Source: Candidatus Magnetomicrobium cryptolimnococcus
Lineage (GTDB): Bacteria > Nitrospirota > Thermodesulfovibrionia > Thermodesulfovibrionales > Magnetobacteriaceae
Length of the DNA stretch: 64,000 nt
NCBI GenBank assembly: GCA_018606805.1
Contig: JAGYWI010000002.1
Location: 62,001-126,000 of the forward strand
Direction of reading: 5' to 3'
Shown: piece by piece, positions 19,862 through 33,439 of the stretch
Layout: each line of letters begins with the position of its first letter
Numbering within the stretch: the first letter of the stretch is position 1
The notes under the pieces: model-generated
What the model was told of the DNA's origin: nothing
What the model saw: the letters and a program-made list of their open reading frames with translations, nothing else
Databases searched by the model: none
Translations under genes and position numbers: made by a program

Positions 19862-19942
19862 CTACCTATTTAGTTATTCCTCTATACTATTGCTACATTA
19901 ACTTAGTGGCATTAAGATTATACCTACACCTATGTTAGCATA

Positions 19943-20124
19943 ACAACTAAAGCGTCTATGGGGAAAGCGCGCTGACCTCAAAGAAAGCCAAAAAAACGGC
20001 TTTCTTTTACGGCAGCGCCATTTCCCCATAGACGCTTTGGTGTAATCAGGGGGAGAAAAATATCTCCCCCTGAGAAAAGCCCCCCCTCTGGATTCTTTTA
20101 TCTACTGGTGCGCAAGCGCACCAG
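19943..20124 (+). repeat. Multi-hairpin repeat element, copy 1 (forward)
   Basis: Three hairpins in fixed order. (a) A perfect 18-bp outer stem AAAGCGTCTATGGGGAAA (19949-19966) / its complement (20021-20038), with an inner 8-bp stem AGAAAGCC/GGCTTTCT. (b) CAGGGGGAG (20047-20055) / CTCCCCCTG (20064-20072). (c) CTGGTGCGC/GCGCACCAG at 20105-20124. The same a-b-c order occurs at 32308-32490 and, inverted, at 33044-33220. No ORF is present. Confidence 0.85.
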
Positions 20125-20149
20125 GGGTGATAGTCTCTGCGTGGCTTCA

Positions 20150-20270
20150 AAGTAGAGAGGGGGTTTTAAAGGGGGAGTTTTTTTCCTCCCCCTTTTAGCA
20201 CCAAATCGGCGAATGGAAAGACAACCCCCGTTCTTTTTGGGGGGTTGTCTTTCCATTCGCCGATTTACTC
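20150..20270 (-). repeat. Multi-hairpin repeat element, diverged inverted copy facing copy 1
   Basis: It reads as the same element in reverse: AAGGGGGAG/CTCCCCCTT at about 20168-20192 corresponds to hairpin b, the constant TAGCACCAAA joins it to a long hairpin, and the long stem (27 bp, perfect, 20203-20229 with 20240-20266) replaces hairpin a with a different sequence (AAATCGGCGAATGGAAAG...). The structure is kept while the stem sequence is unrelated. Confidence 0.75.
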
Positions 20271-20345
20271 GTTATGCCTGCACAAGCTTTGGGAAAAAAA
20301 GTGTCATACTGCCACAGTGTATAACATTTAGCACTTATTGTCAGA

Positions 20346-29935: not shown

Positions 29936-32113
29936 ATGAAGATAAAGGGCTTTATTTTAAAATTATGTTTGAGTGGTTTGCTTTTTTTGATAGCATTTAT
30001 GCCACAAAGGGCATACTGCCTTAATTATAATATAATAGTATTTAATAACTACAATATGGAAGAGCCGTTTTATTTTGTAACGAGCAGTGGCAGTGCAAAG
30101 GGTATACTCGTTGACTACTGGTATACTTGGGCTAAGATAAATAATTATCAGGTATCATTCTTAGCCGAAAAAAGTGATTTTACTATAGATGCCGTTGATA
30201 AGGCAAAGGCACATATCATAGCTGGCGTTACGAATGCTGTGGATAAGGATAAACGCCTAGACTTGTCCGTGCCAATTACCGAGCTAAGTTTAAAGCTATA
30301 CGCACTCAAGGATTTAAATATAATTAGTCCCGGCGAGCCACAGGAAATAGAAGTCGGTATCGTTGATGATGAAAAGACGCTTAAAGTTTTAAAAGGGCTA
30401 TACCCCCTTGCAAAGTTTAAGCTTTTTAAGTCATATATAAAGCTCTTTGACAGCATCTACAATAATGATGTGAAGGCTTTTATAAGTGAAAAAAATACAG
30501 CCCTGTACTATTTAAACCGTATGAATATAAAGGATAAGTTTAAGGAAATTAAATCAACAGCATATATCGAAATATACGCAGCTGTTAAAAAAGGCAACTC
30601 AGAGCTTTTAAAGGTTATTAACTCAGGCATTGATAAAATAGATGAACAGAAGGTGGACTCTATCATAAACCACTGGCACGGCACACAATCCGGTGGCTTA
30701 GGATTTAATTTTTATGACGCTATTGACTTAACACATATAGTAATCGTTGTTTTACTTGTCCTTATTAGCGTTCTATTACTTATATTAAAAAGAAAGAGCG
30801 CTATTGCCAAAAACTCTAAGTCCAAGTTAATGCAAAACATTGAAACACTAAGGCAAGAGGAATCCCTCAGACGCTACATCGAAAATAACTACAAATTGCT
30901 CATAGACCAATCCCTGACAGGTTTTTTTATTATACAAGATAGGAGCTTCCAGTACGTAAACCAACGGTTTCTAAGCATATTCGATTATGATTATGACGAA
31001 GCCGTTAGCCTTAGTTCTTATAAGGCAGTCTTTCCAGATATTGATATAGATACAATTGAAAACACATTATTCGATACGCAGTCAAATAACATAGGCAATA
31101 ATGTCCTATGGTATAACTGCTCAGCCATTTGTAAGGATGGACGCACAATAGTTGCCGAAACTATGTGGTTTAGAACATTATTTGATGGAACAAATGCTAT
31201 ATTAGGCTCTATTTTGGATATTTCAGACTATAGCAAAACAGAAGGACAAATTAAATCCGCACTGAAAGAAAAGGTGGCAGCACTTCGCGAACTTAAAGAT
31301 AAGAACTACGAGCTGGAAGTTTTAAAAAAAGACTACGAACAACAAGTACGCGATGAAATCGAAAGACGCATAAGCACACAGGAATTTGCAATGCACCAAA
31401 TGGATATGAACTTTTTTATGCAAATCCTGGAACTAATGCTAAGCCAATGGAATCAACCGCTACACTTAATAGAACTAACCGTTAAACTGATAGCAGATTC
31501 TTTTGAGGCTAATAAATTAGATAAATATTTAATGCAAGATGCCATTAATAAAAACATGGAATGCGTTTCCTACATAACCGATGGCATCAAAAACATCTTA
31601 GAATGTTTTAAACCATCTATGAAAAAATGGCACTTTGACGTTGTGGATACTATCAAATCATCTATCTCAATGCTTAACTATACACTGGAAAAAAACGATA
31701 TAGCAATACAAACAGAATTTGAAGGTTGTAACGAAAATGGCCAACTAGTAATCAATGGCTATTCTAATGAATTTAAACAATCCATAATCGCTATTTTGAA
31801 AAATGCCTGCAATGCTATTATACTTAGACGCCAAGATGATGATACTTTTAAAGAAACAAAAGGCAATCTCCATATAGCAACCAATAGCAGTAACGAACTT
31901 GTCCAAATTACCATAAAAGATAATGGCGGCACAATTCCTGCTAACTTGCTTTCTGTAATGTTTGATTTCCAATTAAAAACAAAAGACCACCCAAGGGTTA
32001 CCCCATATCTGTATGCAGTAAAAATGCTCATAGAAGGTAACATGGGCGGTAAACTATCAGCATACAATAAAGATACAGGCCTTATGTTTATTATAGAACT
32101 TAAACAGGCTTAA
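29936..32113 (+). CDS. Periplasmic-sensor histidine-kinase-like protein with degenerate kinase motifs
   Basis: 725 aa: signal peptide (1-28), periplasmic SBP-bac-3-like ligand domain (about 30-255), membrane helix (about 265-287), PAS domain (about 325-440, NYKLLIDQSLTGFFIIQD), coiled coil, dimerisation helix and ATPase-like domain. The family motif AHQWRQPL reads LSQWNQPL here, so Ser503 stands where the phospho-acceptor His should be. The N-box Asn (ILKNACNAI) and G1 DNGG are kept, but the glycine-rich G2 lid is absent (TPYLYAVKMLIEGNMGG). It may be a pseudokinase that regulates a partner, or a recently decayed gene; the intact frame favours the first. No response regulator is adjacent. Confidence 0.85.
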   Translation: MKIKGFILKLCLSGLLFLIAFMPQRAYCLNYNIIVFNNYNMEEPFYFVTSSGSAKGILVDYWYTWAKINNYQVSFLAEKSDFTIDAVDKAKAHIIAGVTNAVDKDKRLDLSVPITELSLKLYALKDLNIISPGEPQEIEVGIVDDEKTLKVLKGLYPLAKFKLFKSYIKLFDSIYNNDVKAFISEKNTALYYLNRMNIKDKFKEIKSTAYIEIYAAVKKGNSELLKVINSGIDKIDEQKVDSIINHWHGTQSGGLGFNFYDAIDLTHIVIVVLLVLISVLLLILKRKSAIAKNSKSKLMQNIETLRQEESLRRYIENNYKLLIDQSLTGFFIIQDRSFQYVNQRFLSIFDYDYDEAVSLSSYKAVFPDIDIDTIENTLFDTQSNNIGNNVLWYNCSAICKDGRTIVAETMWFRTLFDGTNAILGSILDISDYSKTEGQIKSALKEKVAALRELKDKNYELEVLKKDYEQQVRDEIERRISTQEFAMHQMDMNFFMQILELMLSQWNQPLHLIELTVKLIADSFEANKLDKYLMQDAINKNMECVSYITDGIKNILECFKPSMKKWHFDVVDTIKSSISMLNYTLEKNDIAIQTEFEGCNENGQLVINGYSNEFKQSIIAILKNACNAIILRRQDDDTFKETKGNLHIATNSSNELVQITIKDNGGTIPANLLSVMFDFQLKTKDHPRVTPYLYAVKMLIEGNMGGKLSAYNKDTGLMFIIELKQA

Positions 32114-32307
32114 GAAAAAAAAGATAGAAGATAGAAGATAGGGGAAGGACTCTGTCCTTCCCCTTAACCCCTACCTGCAAGGGGTCGAATGACCCCTTGA
32201 CCCATTACGTGAATATTTGTTGGTTAAACTTATATTGGTTGCTACTTTTACTGCGTGGGAAACATATTAGACAACTCGATTAAATGTCTTACACACTGTA
32301 CTTGCAT
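32114..32307. repeat. Hairpin cluster after the sensor gene
   Basis: A purine tract with AGATAGAAGATAGAAGATAG is followed by GGGGAAGGACTCTGTCCTTCCCC (7-bp stem GGAAGGA-type palindrome, 32143-32163) and AAGGGGTCGAATGACCCCTT. These match in design the paired short hairpins of the GAGGGCGCTGCCCTC family at 47732, 54445 and 60245, with different stem sequences. Confidence 0.5.
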
Positions 32308-32490
32308 AACAACTAAAGCGTCTATTGGGAAAAGCGCACGGTCTTAAGAAAGCCAAAAAGACGGCTTTCTTAAGACCGTGCCATTTTCCCATAGACGCTT
32401 TGGTGCTATCAGGGGGAGGGAGAAACTCTCCCCCTGAGAAAAGACCCCCTCTGACTTTTTTCTTTACTGGTGCGCAAGCGCACCAGGGGG
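32308..32490 (+). repeat. Multi-hairpin repeat element, copy 2 (left of fmdB)
   Basis: Hairpin a: AAAGCGTCTATTGGGAAAA (32315) pairs with TTTTCCCATAGACGCTTT (32385-32402) with a one-base bulge, continued by an inner perfect 18-bp stem CACGGTCTTAAGAAAGCC (32337-32354) / its complement (32363-32380). Hairpin b: CAGGGGGAG/CTCCCCCTG (32410-32436). Hairpin c: CTGGTGCGC/GCGCACCAG (32467-32486). It is the mirror image of the copy at 33044-33220. Confidence 0.88.
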
Positions 32491-32673
32491 TTCTTACATT
32501 TTTTACTATTACTGTAAGTGTTAAGCGTCTATTGTCATCATAAGTAGTTTTCAAATGAACTATAAATTGTACTTTCAGTTTTTTTAATACTTGTGGTAAA
32601 ATATTTATTGAGAAATTCACATTGAAAACCAATCATTGAGTATAAAAAAATAACTTATAACGGAGGGTATACT

Positions 32674-33000
32674 ATGCCGATATATGAGTATGAATGCACA
32701 AGCTGTGGAGATAAGCTTGATGTGTTCCAAAAAATCGGAGACAAACCATTACAAATTTGCACACAGTGTGGTGGGCATTTAAAGAAACTTATATCAAACA
32801 CTTCTTTTGTTTTGAAGGGAGGTGGTTGGTACATAACAGATTATCCATCAAAAGATAGGAAAGAGGCAATGGGTAATGAAAAAAGCGGTATTGAAACACC
32901 TAAAGCTAACTCACAACCCAAACAAACTAGTACTGATAAGAAAACGGAGCCTGCTAATGAAAGCTCTGCTACTAAGACTGCCAACACTAATGCAGCATAA
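32674..33000 (+). CDS. FmdB-family zinc ribbon protein
   Basis: Small (108 aa) cytoplasmic protein with the N-terminal zinc ribbon [16 protein letters not shown] and a second CxxC at Cys29/Cys32 (four Cys at 8, 11, 29, 32), then [16 protein letters not shown] and a low-complexity tail rich in Lys, Thr and Asn. The family is widespread and annotated as putative regulatory; no function is established. A strong GGAGG lies 7 bases before the ATG. It sits alone between two inverted copies of a multi-hairpin repeat, as if carried in a cassette. Confidence 0.9.
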
Positions 33001-33043
33001 AGTTTTGATGATAATGAGTAAAGCTTAATATAGATGTAACTGC

Positions 33044-33220
33044 CTGGTGCGCTTGCGCACAAGTCAAAAGAAAAGAGTCAGAGGGGGTCTTCAGGGGGAG
33101 AGCCTTTTTCTCCCCCTGATAGCACCAAAGCGTCTATGGGAAAATGGCACGGCCTTAAGAAAGCTGTCTTTTTAGCTTTCTTAAGGCCGTGCGCTTTTCC
33201 CAATAGACGCTTTAGTTGTC
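33044..33220 (-). repeat. Multi-hairpin repeat element, copy 3 (right of fmdB, inverted)
   Basis: Reads c-b-a on the plus strand: CTGGTGCGCTTGCGCAC (33044), CAGGGGGAG/CTCCCCCTG (33092-33118), then AAAGCGTCTATGGGAAAA (33127-33144) / TTTTCCCAATAGACGCTTT (33195-33213) with inner stem CACGGCCTTAAGAAAGCT (33148-33165) / AGCTTTCTTAAGGCCGTG. Compared with copy 2, inner-stem differences occur on both arms so that pairing is kept. Confidence 0.88.
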
Positions 33221-33259
33221 ATGTAAGTACAGATGTGAGTATAACACCATGATTGCAAG

Positions 33260-33325
33260 CTAAAAGTTTTAGGAAAGGGGGTGCGGGGGAAGAACCCTTT
33301 TTCAAAAGGGTTTTCCCCCGCTCTT
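33260..33325 (+). repeat. P-family palindromic repeat upstream of the NYN gene
   Basis: CTAAAAGTTTTAGGAAAGG, then GTGCGGGGGAAGAACCC pairing across AAAGGGTTTTCCCCCGC. Same layout as the copy at 20346. Confidence 0.7.
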
Positions 33326-33439
33326 CTACTCCGCTATACTGCTCACAGTTTTCACAATTTTATACAAAAAGTTGCATTATTTGGGGCAAAAGCTGTAAAC
33401 TTTTTAATCAATCCTACAATTATGGTGTAAGCATAAATA

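Follow-up and report, generated by a model that had tools for sequence, protein, structure and literature searches.

Inverted hairpin elements around fmdB belong to a lineage-restricted family of intergenic repeats whose stem arms appear to be copied from one another

The window analyzed here is a stretch of 64,000 nucleotides from Candidatus Magnetomicrobium cryptolimnococcus, a member of the Nitrospirota, the group to which most of the MAGs with the closest PdxJ relatives also belong. It contains a gene for an FmdB-type zinc ribbon protein of 108 aa (PF09723; 32674–33000, + strand), whose neighbours differ from genus to genus. The gene sits between two inverted elements of ∼178 bp, here termed E1. 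The initial annotation had described a pair of ∼180-bp elements in this position, each with three hairpins in fixed order, and this description holds. Copy 1 (32308–32486, + strand) and copy 2 (33044–33220, – strand, facing copy 1) are 92% identical, score 212 and 190 bits against the covariance model, and have the same hairpin order. In each, a long hairpin (hairpin 1; 32312–32404, + strand, and 33124–33216, – strand) is followed by a GGGGGAG/CTCCCCC stem (hairpin 2; 32409–32437, + strand, and 33091–33119, – strand) and a GGTGCGC/GCGCACC stem (hairpin 3; 32467–32486, + strand, and 33044–33063, – strand), the last of these being imperfect in copy 2. The long hairpin of copy 1 carries an extra T in its 5' arm and a GC/CA internal mismatch. 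Across the gene, the inverted arms (32296–32437 and 33091–33232) are 92% complementary over 142 nt, with a spacing of 653 nt. When folded as single strands and compared to dinucleotide shuffles, copies 1 and 2 gave z scores of –12.6 and –11.1, respectively.

Because each E1 sits within larger repeat modules, the repeated DNA around fmdB extends from ∼32137 to ∼33330, further than first noted. Outside copy 1 lies module A (32137–32307, + strand), made up of a polypurine edge, a hairpin at 32140–32164, a GACCCCTTGACCC hairpin and a segment ending in CTTGCAT; on the – strand this module is terminator-like, with a T-rich tract after the hairpin. Outside copy 2 lies module B (33221–33330, – strand), a separate repeat consisting of CCTAAAACTTTT and a hairpin at 33283–33321. 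The mates thus have different outer modules. They are nonetheless reciprocal nearest relatives among the E1 copies, with a divergence of 6.3%. Between copy 1 and fmdB, 12 nt at 32523–32534 (AAGCGTCTATTG) exactly repeat part of the E1 5' end and are perhaps a remnant of another E1 copy.

The source genome holds 30 full copies of E1, two copies in which the stem interior is deleted, and several fragments, analyzed here on genome stretches surrounding the copies. A third copy in the window, detected with the covariance model at 19942–20124 (+ strand), is part of a complete array. We rejected an assembly artefact as the source of these repeats, because the 30 loci have different flanks and include diverged copies, in an assembly that is 98.5% complete and 0.56% contaminated. 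Searches of 18 genomes from the same family recovered neither E1, whether by DNA or by covariance model, nor its sister family E2 (see below), and other families of the order gave two weak E1 DNA matches of only 39 and 26 nt. The exact conserved E1 pattern had no match in viral contigs or in contigs of named genomes, and plasmid and phage records contained no DNA similar to E1, these being collections that may omit very near records. The E1 pair at fmdB is two copies of a scattered intergenic repeat restricted to one Nitrospirota lineage.

E2 comprises ∼26 copies with the architecture of E1 and other stem sequences. The E1 covariance model recovers E2 copies over their whole length (E ∼1e-14 to 1e-21), including the one that faces the third E1 copy of the window (20105–20273, – strand; 79 bits, E = 2e-19). 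Hairpin 2 and the CCCCCTCT tail are kept in E2, and the stem arms vary by subfamily while still matching each other. Both families occur in modular arrays. Outward of the E1 long hairpin comes either module A (GGGGGAAGGACTCTGTCCTTCCCCC ... GACCCCTTGACCC) or module B (GGGGGAAAACCCTTTT..AAAAGGGTTTTCCCCC ... CCTAAAACTTTT), the latter present in at least 40 copies in the source genome and also found alone. On its inward side, E1 borders unique DNA at some loci; at others a linker, which often carries a GTAG-type REP, leads to a facing E2. All 14 close E1–E2 neighbours face inward. The order of an array is hence an outer A or B, an inward E1, a linker, an inward E2 or other E1, and a B module, and the outer edges of A and B resemble each other in inverted orientation. 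Long polypurine tracts flank the outer hairpins in many arrays, as at 32113–32140 of the window (AGATAGAAGA...), and the opposite end has the corresponding polypyrimidine tract.

The initial annotation also reported differences between the fmdB mates on both strands of the long stem such that pairing is retained. This observation was borne out (GGTCTTAAG/CTTAAGACC versus GGCCTTAAG/CTTAAGGCC), and a second two-sided difference is seen at the loop closure (C..G versus T..A). Over 30 aligned E1 copies, we counted 11 two-sided pair changes, compared to 3.7 ± 1.2 in shuffles and no more than 3 in slid controls, although the copies are related by descent and the shuffles hence overstate significance. 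Some of these changes are transversions that lack a wobble intermediate (G-C to T-A, C-G to A-T). Given that relatedness inflates the two-sided counts, we examined markers specific to each arm. The usual 5' arm reads ..AAAGCG.. with short or CTCAAAG centre blocks, and the usual 3' arm, reverse complemented, reads ..AAATGG.. with GTATAAG or GTAAAAG blocks. Twelve copies contain a block typical of the other arm, and in every one of them (12/12) this block matches the opposite arm of its own copy. The same block is present on both arms in 12 of 30 copies, compared to 3.9 in shuffles (1 in 100,000); with duplicates collapsed, the numbers are 10 of 23 versus 3.1 (6 in 100,000). At one locus (L035) the 5' arm is overwritten with the 3'-arm signature, and at another (L052) the reverse is seen. 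Two copies that are 2.2% apart (L033_6264 and L040_12321) are identical in the 5' arm and differ in the 3' arm by changes that are clustered. Multi-base clustered changes, in other words, bring one arm into agreement with its partner in the same copy, as is expected of a template switch at a quasipalindrome.

In quasipalindrome template switching, imperfect inverted repeats become perfect by copying of one arm from the other (PMC8794818, PMC7202029), and evidence of such switching has been published for hairpins (PMC8794818). E1 arms are matched as if one had been copied from the other in this way, with the difference that what we see here is a pattern spread over ∼56 natural copies of one genome rather than events. 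The stem covariation is genuine and, judging from the sequences of the copies, looks better explained by arm-to-arm copying within each palindrome; we infer that the arm blocks may be the footprint of template switching. Selection for structure and gene conversion within palindromes had been put forward as alternatives at the outset; this reading is supported, and the evidence, including the 12 of 12 matching blocks, is better for copying between arms.

We therefore favour, with moderate confidence, a model in which E1 and E2 are sister non-coding palindromic repeats that multiplied in a Nitrospirota lineage and whose arms were homogenised by template switching. E1 and E2 would have multiplied within the lineage as modular intergenic arrays. 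During replication, one arm of the long stem would be copied from the other by a template switch, transferring a mutation or a whole block to the opposite arm, and it is mainly for this reason that the arms would stay complementary. Past spread may have depended on a putative transposase that acted on hairpin DNA in trans, in the manner of REPINs or BOX elements. Against this, 28 of 30 copies retain the arm-specific GC/CA mismatch, and 22 of 30 still have the extra T. It follows that copying happens seldom or covers short tracts, or else that the asymmetry is selected, perhaps because it plays a part in recognition of the hairpin. If asymmetry is selected, then pairing of the stem may be selected as well.

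Selection could in principle act on RNA, with transcribed hairpins serving to terminate, stabilise or process neighbouring 3' ends and with compensatory changes fixed under RNA selection. Strong folding and the two-sided stem changes would be expected in this case, and the terminator-like hairpin and T-rich tract of module A on the – strand also fit. Based on long ORFs, 12 of the 30 full E1 copies lie between convergent genes, compatible with a role at 3' ends, and 4 lie between divergent genes. However, copies are found in all gene orientations, including upstream of fmdB, and no terminator was called for E1 or E2 themselves in the scanned region. E1 was not found in related genera, and a tRNA is the sole Rfam family detected in the window. 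On balance, these data make an RNA-level role a possible but rather doubtful explanation of the covariation.

The layout at fmdB had been likened to a composite mobile cassette, and mostly single copies elsewhere were expected if this likeness was misleading. Genome-wide, most copies are indeed single, with 24 of 32 full or internally deleted E1 copies lying outside any close facing pair. Nor do the elements always flank a gene; most enclose none and reside in intergenic arrays, often opposite an E2. Yet four facing E1 pairs do flank genes, namely fmdB, gyrA (C27), the phosphoglucose isomerase gene pgi (C19), and a sulfate permease gene together with usp (C40). Four such pairs within 3 kb compares to 0.20 expected (P = 3e-5, by a simulation that was post hoc and takes no account of preference for particular intergenic regions), and there are no back-to-back or same-strand E1–E1 pairs within this distance. 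This excess of facing pairs around genes is not accounted for by viewing E1 as a plain repeat. Inside the C40 pair (L038, 8733–10531), the sulfate permease gene appears split into two frames.

In a cassette, inward-facing elements with outer ends would mobilise the DNA they enclose, making fmdB, gyrA, pgi and sulP-usp cargo. The excess of facing pairs, none of them back to back, is in line with this idea, as are the inward orientation of the close E1–E2 neighbours, the likeness of the outer edges of A and B in inverted orientation, and the reciprocal relationship of the fmdB mates. MITE-flanked integrons provide a precedent (PMC10969869). Furthermore, gyrA follows gyrB in 11 relatives, whereas in the source genome it stands alone between facing E1 copies. 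In several relatives without E1, though, gyrA likewise does not adjoin gyrB. We saw no target duplications at the element edges, where the longest word shared by own versus mismatched flanks was 4.8 versus 4.8, or at the array edges (6.5 versus 6.8), a test in which polypurine/polypyrimidine edges would mask short duplications and old copies may have lost theirs. As the initial annotation stated, no transposase is evident: none with matching ends was found in a survey of one transposase family, and the neighbouring proteins examined at fmdB include none. With neither target duplications nor a transposase with matching ends, a composite mobile cassette is unsupported. The marks of a composite transposon are similarly lacking at fmdB itself, where the mates are 6.3% diverged and have different outer modules, and the mates of the gyrA, pgi and sulP-usp pairs are not each other's nearest relatives. 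We therefore do not accept the cassette reading and consider mobilisation of the enclosed genes improbable, and it seems a little less credible still that the inward-facing elements are cassette ends on which a putative enzyme acted in trans to relocate chromosomal genes, gyrA and fmdB among them. Probably, fmdB is a resident gene with an inward-facing E1 on each side. In the source genome, gyrB is followed not by gyrA but by an apparent antitoxin gene and a PIN-type toxin gene (L183, G000:C5:92059-93405).

An invertible switch, in which the fmdB segment would be turned over together with its promoter by recombination between the two facing E1 copies, is suggested by the 142-nt arms of 92% identity lying 653 nt apart but is very hard to credit, as these arms are short and diverged, the other three facing pairs surround unrelated genes, and examination of the neighbouring proteins revealed no recombinase.

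Returning to E1 and E2 as multiplied palindromic repeats, several known systems invite comparison. The BOX, RUP and SPRITE elements of Streptococcus pneumoniae are short, structured, modular intergenic repeats that are clustered, nearly confined to one lineage and mostly non-coding, and BOX has been linked to ISSpn2-like ends (PMC3049150). E1 is likewise short, structured, modular, clustered, lineage-confined and devoid of coding capacity, and modules A, B, E1, E2 and REP combine much as BOX modules do, with B also occurring alone. E1 and E2 differ in forming inward-facing arrays without a known partner IS.

REPINs and BIMEs, which are associated with RAYT transposases, usually consist of two palindromic units in inverted orientation. 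E1 resembles them in its inverted doublets (the 14 inward-facing E1–E2 neighbours and the four E1–E1 pairs) and in that a RAYT-like gene and GTAG-type REP hairpins are present in the source genome. It differs in being ∼180 nt long with three hairpins, and its consensus has no GTAG or GGAG tetranucleotide 5' of hairpins 1–3. Mobilisation of E1 by RAYT was rejected, since the single RAYT-like gene has no E1 beside it and is flanked by a different REP. This gene (L084, G000:C68:132845-136024; 1465–2079, – strand) would encode a RAYT-like Y1 transposase, with a sub-threshold match to PF01797; its reading frame holds inserted REP hairpins (GTAGGGGCAGACCTATGTGTCTGCCC), and a similar REP-bearing stretch lies just upstream.

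MITEs offer a further parallel. E1 is, like them, short, non-coding, highly structured and present in many copies, but no target duplications were seen at its copies and it is not terminally symmetric. In MITE-flanked class 1 integrons, two MITE copies flank the carried genes (PMC10969869). No IS with ends like the asymmetric ends of E1 was found in the survey of one transposase family. An integron attC-like site was considered and rejected, since the E1 boxes do not seem to match the attC consensus. We place E1 among the intergenic palindromic repeats, where it works like a modular repeat of the BOX or REPIN type.

The ∼56 related palindromes of this genome, with markers that distinguish their arms, constitute a natural record of how the arms of long DNA hairpins stay matched. 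Base-pair covariation is usually taken as proof of RNA function, and E1 and E2 make directly testable the debated question of whether such covariation can arise from arm copying alone. As a caution, covarying stems in repeats should not be read as evidence of selected RNA.

The palindromes may also wear the arrays down by favouring deletions between short homologies. In partial copies and deletion derivatives the long stem is gone, and the junctions fall at short words common to both sides (such as CCCCCT in L061 and CTCTG in L191 and L196), which fits slippage across hairpins. L191 and L196 (C24:18342 and C72:123362) have an identical junction between module A and E2, GGACTCTG joined to CGCTAGCTCC, which would mean that deletion at CTCTG happened more than once or that the two loci descend from a common ancestor. 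At another locus (L062, G000:C17:1-8000; 1–1658), the E1 stem is halved beside an apparent insertion sequence, possibly an IS with a putative transposase that inserted into the E1 palindrome.
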